This document shows, piece after piece, positions 52,236 through 62,482 of a stretch of DNA of 64,000 nt. Location of the stretch: the NCBI GenBank assembly GCA_021738625.1, contig JAIPBS010000002.1:124001-188000 (forward strand), in the 5' to 3' direction. Origin of the DNA: Bacteroidales bacterium. GTDB lineage: Bacteria > Bacteroidota > Bacteroidia > Bacteroidales > JAIOZK01. Made by a program: the position numbers and the translations under genes. Under the pieces are notes generated by a model. That model worked only from the letters and a program-made list of their open reading frames with translations, was not told where the DNA came from and made no database searches. Numbering within the stretch: position 1 is the first letter of the stretch; each line of letters opens with the position of its first letter.

Positions 52236-52994
52236 TCAGTAGTTTTTTCGTCTGAGAAGAACATCCAGCAACTCATCTTTTCTTCTTCTGGAAACTTCAA
52301 CTGTTGAGCCGTCATCCAGGCTGAGTGATCCGCCGCCACCTTTCTGATACTTTACTACATGGTTGAGGTTGATCAGGTGTGATTTATGACTTCTGAAAAA
52401 CCCCTGTGCACAGAGCATTTCGTCATACTCCTTTAAAGACCTCGAAACAAGAATCTTCGATCCGTCCTTCATAATAAACCAGGTGTAATTGCTTTCCGAT
52501 TCGCAGCGCACAATGTCAAGCAGGTTAACAAAAGTAAAGCCTTCCAGGGTGGGGAGAGCGATCTTGTTAAATCCATGGAGATTGGCCATCATCAGTTCGA
52601 TGCGCCGGTGGAAGTTGGAGTAAAGATTACTGTCGTACAACCGGTTGACAGCCCGCATTAGTTTTTCGCTTTCTATTGGTTTCAGGAGATAGTCGATGGC
52701 GCTGAAACGAAAGGCATTAATAGCGTAACGGTCGAATGCAGATACAAAAATGATCTTGAAATCTAGCGAGGGGATTTGATCGAGCATATCGAATCCGGTT
52801 CCGTCGGGCAGTTTCACATCGAGGAAAACGAGCCCCGGTTTCTTTTCCATAATGGTTTCCTGTCCCATTTTTATATTGCCGGCTTCCCCGACAATTTCCA
52901 GGTTGTTGCAGTGATCGGTGATCAGTCCTTTCAGCGAGTTGCGGCAAGCGCTCTCGTCGTCCACAATTACTGTTTTGATTAATTCTTCATCCAT
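52236..52994 (-). CDS. LytTR-family response regulator
   Basis: A 252-residue response regulator. The receiver domain has its phospho-acceptor Asp in LVFLDVKLPDGTGFDML and the switch Lys in SAIDYLLKPIES. The C-terminal LytTR DNA-binding domain covers residues of about 150-252 (DIVRCESESNYTWFIMKDG, FFRSHKSHLINLNHVVKY). The ATG at 52994 gives MDEELIKTVIVDDE; the track's upstream start overlaps the kinase gene. The gene is 7 bases after the kinase gene, so this is a LytS/LytR-type pair. Target promoters are unknown. Confidence 0.92.
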   Translation of the reverse strand: MDEELIKTVIVDDESACRNSLKGLITDHCNNLEIVGEAGNIKMGQETIMEKKPGLVFLDVKLPDGTGFDMLDQIPSLDFKIIFVSAFDRYAINAFRFSAIDYLLKPIESEKLMRAVNRLYDSNLYSNFHRRIELMMANLHGFNKIALPTLEGFTFVNLLDIVRCESESNYTWFIMKDGSKILVSRSLKEYDEMLCAQGFFRSHKSHLINLNHVVKYQKGGGGSLSLDDGSTVEVSRRRKDELLDVLLRRKNY

Positions 52995-53001
52995 GGTTAA
53001 T

Positions 53002-55197
53002 TCAATCTGTTTCGTATGGCAATTCAATTTCGATTCGGGTGCCTTGTTTATCTTCACCGGATTTCCCCAAATCGGTGATATCTATGATCAGTTCGGTTCC
53101 ATATTGACTGGCAAGCAGGTTCAGTCGTTCGTTGGTTAGCTTCACCCCCATTGATGTATGGGCGGATTTTTGAGCATCTGTTGTTGTCCTGATTCCCGGA
53201 CCGTTGTCATCTATCAAACAGAGCAAATGGTCTTTTCTGTAGCTAAACCGAATTTCGATTTTGCCCCTGTTACCTGTAAGATTTGATATTCCATGCTTTA
53301 CAGCGTTTTCAACAAAAGGCTGAATCAACATTGGCGGAATCCACACCTCGTCTGCTTTGATACCGGCTGAATCAATATGATAATCAAACTTATCCTCAAA
53401 TCTTGCTTTTTCGAGGCCCAGGTAAATGTCCAACATCTCGATCTCATCTTCCAGCAGGATCATGGATTTTCTTGAACTTTCAAGGATCAGGCGCATCAGG
53501 CTGCTGAACCTGGCCAGGTATTCTTTTGCTACCTGGGTTTTGTTGTTGGTGATGAAAGAATGAACCGAATTCAGAGAATTGAAAATGAAATGTGGGTTCA
53601 TTTGCATCAGCAGAAGCTTTTTTTCGGTTTCGAGCTTTTGTTTCTTGAGTTGTTCCTGCTTGTTTTTCTGACGGAGTCTGTTGATATATACAATCAAAAG
53701 GATAATGAAAATCAGTGAAACGGCTGAAATTAAAATGAACCATATCCTGTTTCTTTGCTTGCTCAAACGAAGATCCTGAATCTTCTTTTCCTGGTTCAGG
53801 CTTGCGATCTTCCTGTCCTTTTCAGCTGTTTCATATTTCTCCTGCAATTCGGCTATTTGCAGGTGTTTTTCTTCATTAAGCAAAGAATCTTTCAAAAGCA
53901 TGTGGACCTTATAAAACTCATTTGCTTTTCTGTAATTAGCAGCTTTTTCGTACAATTCGGCCATGTGGTGATAAGCCTCCTTCAACATCTGGTTCAAACC
54001 TAATTCTCTGGCCAACTCAATGCACCGGGTATTGTATAACTTTGCTTCATCGAGACTGCCCAGATCGGCCAGGCTTATGGAGAGTTTGTTGCAGGCATTG
54101 GCAAGTTCCTGTTTATCTTCCATTTCGGTAAACACTTCAATGGCTTCCTTATGTTTTCTGGCAGCTTTGTCAAATTGACCCAGGGCATGGTATACATTTC
54201 CCATGTTGCTTGTCGTAATTGCTGTACCGCGCTGGTTTCCGGCTTCTTTGTATGTATTTAACGCTTGCTCAAAGTATAATAGCGAACTGTCGAATTTCCC
54301 CCATTCCTGGTAAACATTGCCAAGGTTTCCCAGCATGATGGCAGAGGGAACCACTTTTCCCATCTCACGGTTAATCTTAAGTGCTTTGTTATAATACTCA
54401 ATAGCTTTGGGATAATTGCTCATCATCTGGTAGATGCCTGCAATATTTCCCAGGTAAATGCCAACACTTCTTTTATCGCCCAGCTTTTGCTTGATTTCAA
54501 GGGCTTGCAGGAAATGCTTTATGGCCGCCTCATAATCGCCCTGATAAAACTCGACTACGCCCATGTTGTTGTATGTTTCCGCCTTGCCTTTATCGCTGTT
54601 TGCCTTTTCAAAGAGCGGAAGCGCTTTTTGATAGTAAATAACAGAGGAGTCGTAATTGCGGATATTTTGATAAATGATACCAATGTGGTTATAGCCATTG
54701 GCAATGCCTTCAATGTTATTGTTTTGCAAGCTGATCTCCAGAGATTTTCTGTAGTAGGCGAGTGCTTGTATAAAATCTTCGGCCGCCTCAGTAACATATC
54801 CCAGGTATCCGTACATCCATGCCTCGGCAGCATGATCACCGGCCAGTTGAGCAAAATGTAATCCTTTTTCATACATACTGAAGGCGCTGTCGTATGCGGC
54901 CTGGTTTTGCCAGCCAATCCCGAGTAATTTATATGCCTCTGATGTATTCAGGTATTGTTCGTGCCGCTGACTGATTTTTCTTGCTTCTTCAGCCAACTGA
55001 CGTGCTTTTTCAGGATCTTTTTTCAGGTAATGATAAGATAGCTTGATGATGATCTCTGATTTGTCGGGCTCCCTGCTGCTTGCCAGGGCTTTGTTGAGAC
55101 TGTCTTCGTAGGTGTCCTGGGCCGTCAGGGCCCCACTCAATACGGCAAGTATGATCAGGGCGCCTGTTTTTTTTATAATCGACTGATAAAATACCAC
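53002..55197 (-). CDS. TPR-sensor histidine kinase (LytS type)
   Basis: A 731-residue protein with a signal-like N-terminus. About nine tetratricopeptide repeats follow over residues of about 50-420 (for example GIANGYNHIGIIYQNIRNYDSSVIYY), then a coiled coil, one membrane helix (IWFILISAVSLIFIILLIVYI), and a His_kinase/HATPase region. The phosphorylated His is in MQMNPHFIFNSLNSVHSF; VENAVKHGISN and DDNGPGIRT are the ATP-site boxes. The TPR domain faces the periplasm. It is divergent from the S74 repeat protein, a possible target. Confidence 0.92.
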   Translation of the reverse strand: MVFYQSIIKKTGALIILAVLSGALTAQDTYEDSLNKALASSREPDKSEIIIKLSYHYLKKDPEKARQLAEEARKISQRHEQYLNTSEAYKLLGIGWQNQAAYDSAFSMYEKGLHFAQLAGDHAAEAWMYGYLGYVTEAAEDFIQALAYYRKSLEISLQNNNIEGIANGYNHIGIIYQNIRNYDSSVIYYQKALPLFEKANSDKGKAETYNNMGVVEFYQGDYEAAIKHFLQALEIKQKLGDKRSVGIYLGNIAGIYQMMSNYPKAIEYYNKALKINREMGKVVPSAIMLGNLGNVYQEWGKFDSSLLYFEQALNTYKEAGNQRGTAITTSNMGNVYHALGQFDKAARKHKEAIEVFTEMEDKQELANACNKLSISLADLGSLDEAKLYNTRCIELARELGLNQMLKEAYHHMAELYEKAANYRKANEFYKVHMLLKDSLLNEEKHLQIAELQEKYETAEKDRKIASLNQEKKIQDLRLSKQRNRIWFILISAVSLIFIILLIVYINRLRQKNKQEQLKKQKLETEKKLLLMQMNPHFIFNSLNSVHSFITNNKTQVAKEYLARFSSLMRLILESSRKSMILLEDEIEMLDIYLGLEKARFEDKFDYHIDSAGIKADEVWIPPMLIQPFVENAVKHGISNLTGNRGKIEIRFSYRKDHLLCLIDDNGPGIRTTTDAQKSAHTSMGVKLTNERLNLLASQYGTELIIDITDLGKSGEDKQGTRIEIELPYETD

Positions 55198-55558: not shown

Positions 55559-58500
55559 ATGATGAAAAAGAAATTGTTTTACCCGATCATCCTGATACTT
55601 TTTGCAGGATCAAGTCTGTTTTCGCAGAATAATGTGGCTGTTACAGATGATAACAGCTATTCGGCAGATCCTTCTGCCGTACTTGATGTGTATTCGACCG
55701 ATAAGGGTTTGTTGATCCCGCGCTTAACCACTGCCCAGCGAGTTGCCATATCAAGTCCGGCTGAAGGCTTGCTTGTATACGACAGTGACAATGAGTCCAT
55801 ATGGTTATACAAATCGGGCGACTGGTCGGAGCTTGGCAGCAGCGATCTTATTAATTCGGTTGCGACAAGCAATCTTTTTGTTGGGGAGCAAGCGGGCGCA
55901 CAGCATACCATCGGGAACTACAATACAGCAGTAGGCGATGGTTCCCTGTACTCGAACAAGGCCAATTATAGCAGCACTGCCCTGGGGTATCAGGCAATGT
56001 ATTATGCAGATGATCGAACGACGACCCAAACAACTTTTAACACTGCTATTGGTGCGCAGGCATTGCGTGGCAGTGCAGTTGCCGCAAACAATACCGGCAT
56101 GTACAATACTGCGGTGGGCATGCAGAGTTTGTTTACCAATTCGGTAGGTTTTGGCAATACTGCAATTGGTTCCAGGGTGCTTTACAACAATTCTGACGGT
56201 ACATACAATACCGCTGTTGGGAATGATGCTTTGTTTAATAGCACCCAGGGATTTCAAAATGTTGCCATTGGAGGCGCAGCTTTGTATCATAATGTAGCTA
56301 ATTTTGAAAGTGTTGCCATTGGTTATAGGTCAATGTACTATGCTGATGACAGAACCGATGGCAGGGCTACCTATAATACCGCTGTTGGCAGTGAATCGTT
56401 GCGAGGTGGATCAACCCCCTCTGAAAATACGGGAATATCCAATACCGCAATCGGATTTTATGCGCTCAGGTTAAATACCTCGGGTGCGGATAATGTGGCG
56501 CTTGGCAAAATTGCATTGTCAAGTAATTCAAGTGGTTCATTCAATATTGCCGTGGGGAATGAAGCACTTACTCAAAACACCTCAGGTAATTATTCAATTG
56601 CCATCGGGCATAAAGCCTTATATATGCAAACAGAAGGTAAAGGTGATGAGGAAATTGCCAATATAGCCATTGGATATTATGCATTGCATCTAACCGATCC
56701 GGTAAACGATACTTCCGGGCGTTATAATGTGGGAATAGGCCATGGAGCGATGTGGGCTAATACCAGCGGTAGCAGCAATGTCGGTATTGGTAAATGGTCA
56801 TTGCGGTATAATTCAAGCGGCCATTCAAATACAGCTGTAGGTACGGAAGCAATCCAATTTAACTCGGTTGGCGCATACAATGCGGCAATAGGAATGCAGG
56901 CGCTTAGGAAAAATTCCACGGGTAATAACAATACTGCTCATGGGTTTGCCTCTCTGGCCTCCAATGAAGGTGGCTCGGAGAATGTCGCAGTTGGGGCTTA
57001 CGCAATGCATACCAACAAAATGACTTCTGAAAGTACGGCCGTTGGCTTCAAAGCCATGCGCAATGCTTGTGACAGTTATACGGCTGTTCCAACTTACAAT
57101 ACGGCAGTTGGATATGAAGCCCTTTGCGGGAATGCAATAGCTTCATATAACAACGGAACCAGAAATACCGCCATTGGCCACCAGGCATTGGCATCCAATA
57201 CTTCAGGTGATAACAATACAGCGGCAGGTTCGGGTGCGTTGTTCACAAACAGTAGCGGACACAGTAATTCGGCCTTTGGCCTGAATGCCCTGTATGCAAA
57301 TACCACTGGCCGTTATAATGTTGCAATCGGAACAAATGCTCTTTATAGCAATACAACCGCATGGTACTCCATTGCAATAGGGTATGAGGCGCTTTATTCC
57401 CAAACCGATTATGCAGGTTTGTACGATGTTGGTAATATCGCTATTGGATATCAGGCCTTATACAATACCAATCCCACGCTTTCATCAAACGGGAGATATA
57501 ATATTGCAATGGGGCTCTATTCTTTAAAGGCAAACACTATAGGATACAACAACATAGCCCTGGGGAGATCTTCTCTTTCACAAAACACAACAGGTTACGC
57601 CAATGTTGCCATTGGAACCTATGCGCTGTTTTTCAATATTGAAAATACATCAAGTACTGCCATTGGATACAAAGCAATGCAATTTGCTGATAACCGCACA
57701 AGTGGAAGAGCAACCTATAATACGGCCATTGGCTATGAGGCTTTGAAAGGCAGCGCAAGCGCGGCCAATAATACAGGGCGATCCAATACCGCTATAGGTT
57801 ACCAGTCGTTAAGTTCAACTTCCAGTGGTGATCAAAATATCGCAGTTGGGGATATGAGTCTGTATCAACTTACTACAGCCAATATGAATACGGCTATTGG
57901 GTCGAAAGCGGGTTATAATACAATAACTCATCATTACAATACTTTTGTGGGATGCGAAGCCGGTTACAACAATACCGTGGATAGAAATACATTCGTAGGA
58001 TATCAATGCGGATATGGAAATGATGATGGCTGGAGGAATACCTACTTCGGTGCAGGGGCCGGTTACAACAATATATCCGGGCACAGGAATGTAATGATCG
58101 GCCTGGAAGCCGGTTACAACAGCACGGGCAACGACAATGTTTTTATCGGTTATAAGGCAGGATATTCTGTAACAGGTAGCGATAAACTCCATATAGCCAA
58201 TTATACATACAATAGTACACCCCTGATTTATGGGGACTTTGCCAGTCACAGGGTAGGCATTTACCGGGTGGCATCAACCAATGCTTTCGAAGTGAACGGA
58301 TCAGCATCGAAAACCACAGCAGGGGATTGGTTGGCCAATAGCGACCGGCGCATCAAAACGGACATACAGGATGTTGACAACGCGCTGGAAACATTGATGA
58401 AGCTCAGACCGGTGAAGTTCAGGTACACCAGTGAATGGATCTCTGAGAATCCGACAATCCAAAACAGGTATTACTACAACTTTATCGCCCAGGAATTCGA

Positions 58501-58720
58501 AGAAGTTTTCCCGGAATCGGTTCAGGGCTCGGGCGAATACCTGGAAGGCGATTCCGAAGAAATCCTTCAAATCGATACCTACAACGCCCAGATCGTGACC
58601 ATCAAGGCTGTGCAGGAACAGCAAAAACTTATCGAACAATTGATGAAAGAAAACAAAGATTTGAAACAGCGCCTCCTGGAGATTGAAAAATTTCTCTCTG
58701 AAGCGTCTTCCATTGATTAG
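55559..58720 (+). CDS. Large repeat protein with C-terminal S74 chaperone/autocleavage domain
   Basis: A 1053-residue secreted protein. Signal peptide MMKKKLFYPIILILFAGSSLFSQ is followed by a lead-in domain typical of Bacteroidetes fibre proteins (PSAVLDVYSTDKGLLIPRLT, EGLLVYDSDNESIWLY). Residues of about 105-905 contain about 42 copies of a NTAIGxxAL-type repeat resembling YadA-head/trimeric adhesin coils, spaced about 17-25 residues. Longer loops recur in fixed order, giving higher-order units. The end is an S74 domain beginning NSDRRIKTDIQDVDNALETL (predicted self-cleavage before Ser of about 928), then a C-terminal coiled coil. S74 domains of phage fibres drive trimerisation and release themselves. 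No T9SS tail is present. Biological role unknown. Confidence 0.85.
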   Translation: MMKKKLFYPIILILFAGSSLFSQNNVAVTDDNSYSADPSAVLDVYSTDKGLLIPRLTTAQRVAISSPAEGLLVYDSDNESIWLYKSGDWSELGSSDLINSVATSNLFVGEQAGAQHTIGNYNTAVGDGSLYSNKANYSSTALGYQAMYYADDRTTTQTTFNTAIGAQALRGSAVAANNTGMYNTAVGMQSLFTNSVGFGNTAIGSRVLYNNSDGTYNTAVGNDALFNSTQGFQNVAIGGAALYHNVANFESVAIGYRSMYYADDRTDGRATYNTAVGSESLRGGSTPSENTGISNTAIGFYALRLNTSGADNVALGKIALSSNSSGSFNIAVGNEALTQNTSGNYSIAIGHKALYMQTEGKGDEEIANIAIGYYALHLTDPVNDTSGRYNVGIGHGAMWANTSGSSNVGIGKWSLRYNSSGHSNTAVGTEAIQFNSVGAYNAAIGMQALRKNSTGNNNTAHGFASLASNEGGSENVAVGAYAMHTNKMTSESTAVGFKAMRNACDSYTAVPTYNTAVGYEALCGNAIASYNNGTRNTAIGHQALASNTSGDNNTAAGSGALFTNSSGHSNSAFGLNALYANTTGRYNVAIGTNALYSNTTAWYSIAIGYEALYSQTDYAGLYDVGNIAIGYQALYNTNPTLSSNGRYNIAMGLYSLKANTIGYNNIALGRSSLSQNTTGYANVAIGTYALFFNIENTSSTAIGYKAMQFADNRTSGRATYNTAIGYEALKGSASAANNTGRSNTAIGYQSLSSTSSGDQNIAVGDMSLYQLTTANMNTAIGSKAGYNTITHHYNTFVGCEAGYNNTVDRNTFVGYQCGYGNDDGWRNTYFGAGAGYNNISGHRNVMIGLEAGYNSTGNDNVFIGYKAGYSVTGSDKLHIANYTYNSTPLIYGDFASHRVGIYRVASTNAFEVNGSASKTTAGDWLANSDRRIKTDIQDVDNALETLMKLRPVKFRYTSEWISENPTIQNRYYYNFIAQEFEEVFPESVQGSGEYLEGDSEEILQIDTYNAQIVTIKAVQEQQKLIEQLMKENKDLKQRLLEIEKFLSEASSID

Positions 58721-61549: not shown

Positions 61550-62482
61550 ATGGATAGATTAAAGGTTTTATCAGTCAACATTTCCGAAAAGAAAGGCATC
61601 ATCAAAAAGCCTGTTGAAAGTATCCGGCTGAGCAGGAATGGTGTGGAAGACGATGCCCACGCCGGAAGCTGGCACCGGCAGGTGAGCCTGCTCGGAAACG
61701 AAAGCGTTAAAAAATTTGAAGAGCTGGCCGGACGCAAGATTGAGTTCGGTGAATTTGCCGAAAACATCACCACCGAAGGCATTAAACTATATGAAACCAA
61801 TCCTTTTGACAAATTATACAATGACAATGTAATCCTGGAAGTAACCCAGATCGGTAAAAAATGCCATGGCGATCGTTGCGCCATTTTTCGCGAGGTCGGC
61901 AATTGTGTAATGCCCAAAGAAGGTATTTTCGCCAGGGTTCTCAAAAGCGGCAACATGCAGGCCGGTGACGAGCTGGTTTATGAGCCCAAAATGTTCAGGG
62001 TGAAGATCGTTACCCTGAGCGATCGTGCCAGCAAAGGAGAATATAAAGACCGGAGCGGCCCCCGGATTGAGGAGTTGATCAGGGAGTATTTTGACCGGAT
62101 CAAATGGAGAGTAGAGGTCGAAAGTGTGGTAATACCCGACGATCGCGATCAGCTCAGCTCCATTTTGGTAAATGAAAAAGAAAGCTGCACGGACGTGGTT
62201 TTTACCACCGGAGGAACCGGTATTGGAGCAAGAGACTTTACCCCCGAGGTGGTATCCGGCTTTCTCGACAAAGACATTCCCGGCATCATGGAGATGATCC
62301 GGATGAAATACGGTATGGAAAAGCCCAATGCTTTGCTTAGCAGGGGAGTGGCGGGCGTGATGGGCAAAAGCCTGGTCTACACCCTGCCCGGCAGCGTAAA
62401 AGCCGTAAACGAATACATGACTGAAATAACCAAAACCCTGCAGCATCTGATTTATATGTTGCATGGGCTGGATGTACATTGA
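61550..62482 (+). CDS. MOSC-MogA fusion, molybdenum-cofactor synthesis protein
   Basis: A 310-residue two-domain protein. Residues of about 1-145 are a MOSC domain (LSRNGVEDDAHAGSWHRQVSLLG, KKCHGDRCAIFREVGNCVMPKEGIFARVL), with the Cys typical of sulfur-carrier MOSC proteins. Residues of about 150-310 are a MogA/MoaB-type molybdopterin adenylyltransferase domain (VTLSDRASKGEYKDRSGP, VVFTTGGTGIGARDFTPE, LSRGVAGVMGKSLVYTLPGS). MogA activates molybdopterin for MoeA, encoded in the same operon. The role of the MOSC half is unproven. Confidence 0.9.
   Translation: MDRLKVLSVNISEKKGIIKKPVESIRLSRNGVEDDAHAGSWHRQVSLLGNESVKKFEELAGRKIEFGEFAENITTEGIKLYETNPFDKLYNDNVILEVTQIGKKCHGDRCAIFREVGNCVMPKEGIFARVLKSGNMQAGDELVYEPKMFRVKIVTLSDRASKGEYKDRSGPRIEELIREYFDRIKWRVEVESVVIPDDRDQLSSILVNEKESCTDVVFTTGGTGIGARDFTPEVVSGFLDKDIPGIMEMIRMKYGMEKPNALLSRGVAGVMGKSLVYTLPGSVKAVNEYMTEITKTLQHLIYMLHGLDVH

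Follow-up and report, generated by a model that had tools for sequence, protein, structure and literature searches.

Self-cleaving fibres are usually seen as parts of phages. In the MAT superfamily of Bdellovibrio bacteriovorus (Caulton 2024), a signal peptide and a conserved N-terminal domain precede a long fibre, the genome holds many paralogues, and the tips consist of an S74 domain or of something else (PMC10769870). Surface display and S74 self-cleavage have been demonstrated for these proteins, in which the variant S782A blocks cleavage and the motif reads SDxxxK, and the authors consider that additional domains may serve this purpose in other bacteria, whether or not these are predators (PMC10769870). 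The same type of cleavage is abolished in MYRF by either of the exchanges S587A and K592A (PMC8326128).

Here we describe a gene from a bacterium of the Bacteroidales that lies within a stretch of 64,000 nucleotides, referred to as the window. From the sequence we infer that its product is a long exported fibre that acts as a three-stranded surface adhesin, and its last 126 residues probably aid folding and then cut themselves off. The fibre is a further example of a design already known, including in Bdellovibrio.

Architecture of the predicted fibre

The reading frame is open and complete, and it encodes, in this order, a signal peptide, an N-terminal domain of about 75 residues (the N-domain), 41 coils of a repeat, and a short stalk that leads into the S74 region at the C-terminus (Table 1). 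The N-terminus, MMKKKLFYPIILILFAGSSLFSQ, combines the residues KKK, a hydrophobic core and the ending ...SLFSQ, and thus has the look of a Bacteroidota signal peptide, as had been read from the sequence in a preliminary description of this DNA.

Table 1. Features of the fibre gene and of its divergent neighbours, in window coordinates
Feature	Position	Strand	Extent	Basis
CDS, predicted secreted S74-terminated fibre protein	55559..58720	+	1053 aa	
Signal-peptide-like N-terminus, followed by Gln23, without lipobox Cys	55559..55624	+	aa 1-22	sequence; paralogues and relatives alike
Conserved N-domain, candidate basal or anchoring module	55625..55852	+	~aa 23-98	alignment
41 coils of a 17-residue repeat, predicted beta-solenoid	55922..58186	+	aa 122-876	repeat analysis, model
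Coil pair 1 (22+22)	55973..56104	+	aa 139-182	repeat analysis
Coil pair 2 (22+22)	56309..56440	+	aa 251-294	repeat analysis
Coil pair 3 (22+22), SIAIG type	56594..56725	+	aa 346-389	repeat analysis
Coil pair 4 (22+22)	57032..57163	+	aa 492-535	repeat analysis
Coil pair 5 (22+22), SIAIG type	57368..57499	+	aa 604-647	repeat analysis
Coil pair 6 (22+22)	57653..57784	+	aa 699-742	repeat analysis
Stalk segment, GSDKLHIANYTYNSTPLIYGDFASHRVGI..., running to the predicted cleavage site	58187..58339	+	aa 877-927	sequence, model; conserved in relative L058
S74 intramolecular chaperone/protease region	58340..58717	+	aa 928-1053	Pfam, alignment, model
Predicted cut before Ser928; Lys933 (SDRRIK)	58340-58342 (Ser928 codon); 58355-58357 (Lys933 codon)	+		S74 dyad
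C-terminal 46-residue helix with heptad pattern, predicted coiled coil	58577..58714	+	aa 1007-1052	model
TPR and LytS-type histidine kinase, divergent neighbour, possible regulator	53002..55197	-	731 aa	domain matches
Response regulator of the LytTR type, downstream of the kinase	52236..53057	-		domain matches

The 41 in-register coils, of the type NTAIGxxALxxNTTGxx, start at residues 122-860 and follow a period of 17 residues; a few of the final coils are 16 residues long. A regular expression for the repeat gave 42 matches in residues 96-905, in agreement with the approximately 42 NTAIGxxAL-type repeats counted previously; when this region was shuffled 500 times, the mean was 1.2 and the maximum 6. 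The higher-order pattern proposed in the preliminary description is real, and more regular than was stated there: the 17-residue period is broken six times by two successive coils of 22 residues, and these pairs are separated by runs of 4, 3, 6, 4 and 3 coils of 17 residues. The unit YxAM..AD.RT, reported in four copies, corresponds to the pairs starting at residues 139, 251, 492 and 699, with a degenerate copy at 492, and the two copies of the SIAIG unit are the pairs at 346 and 604. The top overall self-match of the protein occurs at a shift of 353 residues, with 31.6% identity. As Tandem Repeats Finder detected no DNA-level repeat array over the fibre gene, the repeats are old and diverged rather than prone to slippage. 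The same coil spacing is found in paralogues and relatives.

In the single-chain AlphaFold2 model that also covers the S74 region, the coils form short strands, about one per coil and spaced by one coil. The model of shaft and N-domain is weak, with a mean pLDDT of 63.5, and its best match among solved structures, the YadA-like head 3s6l, is not significant (E 0.2, probability 0.80). No solved structure was matched by a profile of 51 residues of the repeat, and matches of the solenoid to the left-handed beta-helices of gamma-carbonic anhydrase and LpxA were likewise not significant.

The S74 intramolecular chaperone domain that had been recognized behind the repeats matches PF13884 at residues 928-988, well over the curated cut-off (E=8.9e-16; 58.4 bits vs 22; profile positions 1-57 of 58). 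Its Ser-Lys dyad, S928/K933, is intact, and the lysine is located five residues past the serine, a spacing shared with MYRF (S587/K592), endoNF (S911/K916) and the SDxxxK motif of the Bdellovibrio MATs. These two residues form the only invariant columns when 35 C-termini of the same genome and of relatives are aligned, and the pattern S....K is present in 52 of the 53 S74 domains examined, the exception being a degenerate paralogue. A profile of the C-terminus retrieved phage tail-fibre chaperones and MYRF from the solved structures (6f45, E 4.5e-25; 8jov, 1.7e-18; 7dc3, 8.1e-17; 3gud, 1.1e-5), and its match to a solved MAT chain, 8ond, is weak (E=0.03). The single-chain AlphaFold2 model that covers this region (mean pLDDT 85, pTM 0.67) ends in a 46-residue helix with heptads, and its S74 part superimposes on MYRF 7dc3 with a TM score, normalised to the target, of 0.74 (E 2.7e-5). 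Domain and dyad together support the earlier proposal of a self-cleaving fibre, from which a product of 126 residues and 14.9 kDa is predicted to be released.

Paralogues, relatives and their tips

The N-domain, with the consensus xVAIxxDxSxxADxSAMLDVxSTxKGLLIPRxTTAQRxAIxxPAxGLLVYD...W, is common to about 20 proteins of the same genome, at least 17 of them besides the fibre. As in the MATs, the signal peptide is followed directly by a conserved domain that the paralogues share, here the N-domain, and a single type of base carries exchangeable tips, namely S74, FISUMP (PF09603) and other C-termini. The FISUMP tips were found on N-domain proteins of contigs C15 and C66, others end in unassigned domains, and PF13884 has six matches in the genome.

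The close paralogue at L043:5070-6800 on contig C65 is 64% identical to the fibre in its C-terminal part. It is a single frame with three in-frame stops, a TAA in the signal peptide, a TGA before the stalk and a TAG in the C-terminal coil, and judged by this sequence it is a recently inactivated copy. A further S74 fibre of 1406 residues (L045:12805-17022) has LVIVD beta-propeller repeats inserted in its shaft, and a paralogue at L045:7399-9651 joins the N-domain to a degenerate S74 region from which the Ser-Lys dyad has been lost.

Beyond this genome, S74 is present in 34 of 60 genomes of the same order and in 156 of 296 of the same class. Among the 40 complete S74 ORFs of relatives, drawn from 40 fetched loci, 39 look exported by a lax rule that 56% of other ORFs also pass; under a strict signal-peptide rule the count is 34 of 40, compared to 59 of the 252 ORFs next to them (P=8e-14), and a lipobox is found in none of the 40. 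The N-terminal domains of these relatives are of several types, for example FNYQAVxRN or VLTGNPVxPxIPNQNPFFDAST. When genome contigs were searched with the whole protein no relatives were obtained, and a search with the N-domain gave nine, all from Bacteroidota. The protein at L058:2106-4721, from Bacteroidetes bacterium GWA2_30_7, has the same N-domain, PF05658 YadA_head repeats and a C-terminus resembling an H-type lectin, the latter a weak match below the Pfam cut-off (PF09458, E 2e-4). Candidate C1q/TNF-like tips at L048 and L050 were rejected, as Pfam did not support either and a PDB sequence search did not support the one at L048.

As S74 occurs in over half of the genomes sampled from the class and is almost always exported in the loci examined, S74 fibres are probably a major class of adhesins in Bacteroidota that has largely escaped study. 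The preliminary description was correct in recognizing a phage-type architecture in a non-phage setting, and the oddity that it implied does not hold: S74 fibres with signal peptides are widespread in Bacteroidota, and the MATs have been published.

The tips also bear on the question whether the fibre binds anything. An exported structural fibre, be it for a matrix, a vesicle or a periplasmic scaffold, would need no specific target, and S74 would then act mainly as a folding chaperone. Pfam finds no known binding domain in the protein besides the solenoid, and removal of the S74 tip would leave no globular tip behind. However, the FISUMP tips of paralogues with the same base and the lectin-like tip of L058, for all its weakness, fit a binding role, and beta-helical shafts are thought to bind glycans in phage fibres and in the MAT Bd3182 (PMC10769870). 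We therefore consider a purely structural fibre unlikely, albeit a serious alternative to an adhesin.

Export and genomic setting

In line with the preliminary description, neither a T9SS tail, i.e. a C-terminal sorting domain of type A or B, nor a membrane anchor was matched on the fibre in Pfam or NCBIfam. The statement made there that its way to the surface and its retention at the surface are unexplained still stands, and it applies equally to the MATs. The genome does contain SprA and another protein with a T9SS tail. In a sample of the phylum, S74 was found in 25 of 90 genomes with SprA vs 0 of 27 without (Fisher P=0.0009), and within the class, with one genome per family, SprA is present in all 49 S74-bearing genomes vs 14 of 18 that are free of S74 (Fisher P=0.004). 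One more SprA-lacking genome, of the same order, is devoid of S74, so that across all samples S74 occurs only where sprA is present, and in 0 of 32 genomes that lack it. Note that this association is phylogenetically confounded, as the SprA-lacking genomes cluster in few families; with related genomes not being independent and SprA nearly universal in the class, it is a lead and not a result.

The T9SS might carry the fibre over the outer membrane by means of a signal that differs from the C-terminal domains known so far, and the presence of SprA in this genome and in every S74-bearing genome checked would fit. Yet the fibre has no such domain, the known T9SS signals are C-terminal and would here be cut off with the S74 region, and the association itself is confounded, so that we regard this route as decidedly improbable. 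The MATs reach the surface of Bdellovibrio, an organism in which no T9SS is known, which also counts against it. In a broader and rather doubtful proposition, self-cleaving trimeric surface fibres would make up a large class in Bacteroidota, so far uncharacterised, and would cross the outer membrane either through the T9SS translocon without a known signal or through a dedicated exporter that recognizes the shared N-domain.

The gene is surrounded by those for SHMT, polyphosphate kinase, a divergent TPR histidine kinase with its LytTR regulator, and moeA-moaA-moaC. Its flanks are housekeeping genes and, as was claimed before, free of phage genes, and a contractile tail sheath gene is absent from the genome. 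A genome of the same genus, G001, keeps the molybdopterin block, with a MoeA that is 68% identical, has no adjoining fibre and contains no S74; the fibre gene is therefore chromosomal and variable between species. The molybdopterin gene at window positions 61550-62482 has a MogA-like MoCF_biosynth domain in its C-terminal half and is a probable fusion that is also present in G001. Its N-terminal half presumably corresponds to a MOSC domain.

In the genome studied here, three loci (window 52236-55197; L046:11490-14240; L047:2040-4841) have a LytS-type histidine kinase with a LytTR regulator next to an N-domain fibre gene or a FISUMP gene, and three of the 12 kinases of this genome adjoin N-domain loci (binomial P about 0.002). 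G001 has a single N-domain locus (L055:6783-9961), where a LytS-type kinase and LytTR are present as well, with TPRs being noted only in the genome studied here. As a kinase is found at none of the 40 loci of relatives with S74 genes, where a response-regulator-type match occurred only once, a general functional link between fibre and kinase/LytTR was dropped.

The fibre could also be a leftover chromosomal tail fibre, the remnant of a prophage, a tailocin or an extracellular contractile injection system. Tail-spike and tail-fibre families of PHROG match its repeats and C-terminus, similar repeats and/or S74 occur in 160 phage records, and S74 fibres of extracellular contractile injection systems have been published (PMC12923769, PMC8213781). 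In spite of this, tails that assemble in the cytoplasm do not use the signal peptide found here, phages almost entirely lack the N-domain, with four weak partial matches, and relatives possess many intact exported S74 genes. Together with the flanking genes, the fibre-free block in G001 and the lack of a tail sheath, this makes the prophage relic that was named earlier as a counter-explanation very improbable. It is hardly credible at all that the protein is a classical type Vc adhesin, a trimeric autotransporter with a YadA-like head. In favour of this, the NxAIGxxA/S repeats resemble YadA heads, BpaC, UspA1 and Hep_Hag give weak profile matches (E 0.002-0.04), the shaft model has its best fold match in such a head, and L058 carries YadA_head repeats. 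Against it, Pfam gives no YadA_head match in the fibre itself, and the C-terminus is made up of S74 and coiled coil, without a YadA_anchor match; the absence of a translocation barrel refutes type Vc export.

Proposed mechanism and comparison with known systems

We consider it likely that the gene encodes a Sec-exported, homotrimeric, self-cleaving fibre of the mosaic-adhesin type. The signal peptide would direct the chain to the periplasm via Sec, where, by homology to endosialidase NF and MYRF, the S74 region and the terminal coiled coil would gather three chains and S74 would template the folding of the stalk and of the 41-coil beta-solenoid shaft. In the folded trimer the strictly conserved dyad of Ser928 and Lys933 is predicted to cut before Ser928, which would free the 126-residue chaperone and leave about 95 kDa of each chain as the N-terminal fibre. 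The N-domain may then form the base, held by a component of the envelope, with the distal end exposed for binding. Within the family of the same genome, a common N-domain with varied tips might provide a repertoire for surface recognition. Homology supports the mechanism well up to the predicted self-cleavage, and we infer trimerisation, cleavage, surface location and adhesion.

Among known systems, YadA-like heads (PF05658) share the NxAIGxxA/S coil motif with the fibre, with weak profile and fold matches, but their coils have about 14 residues instead of 17, and the fibre lacks an autotransporter barrel. The auto-processing domain of MYRF and MrfA has the chaperone fold and the Ser(+5)Lys dyad in common with it, although these are eukaryotic membrane-bound transcription factors. 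S74, the Ser-Lys dyad and a stalk with coiled coil also characterize phage spikes and fibres (endosialidase NF, phi29-type neck appendage, T5, T4-like; PF13884), and some phages such as P-SSM2 even pair similar repeats with S74. Unlike these, the fibre is chromosomal, is predicted to be exported across the inner membrane, has an N-domain of its own and is not part of a virion.

The Bdellovibrio MATs differ in that the shaft of the present fibre is a solenoid of 17-residue NTAIG coils with 22+22 pairs, that its N-domain comprises about 75 rather than about 130 residues and is likened to theirs by plan and not by sequence, and that FISUMP tips occur; moreover, the host is a T9SS-bearing member of the Bacteroidota and not a predator. 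Common to both are a signal peptide directly followed by a conserved beta-rich domain, a fibre of about 1,000 residues, many paralogues per genome, tips of S74 (SDxxxK) or other types, and a chromosomal, non-phage setting. Given this shared plan, the best reading of the fibre is that it works like the MAT adhesins of Bdellovibrio.
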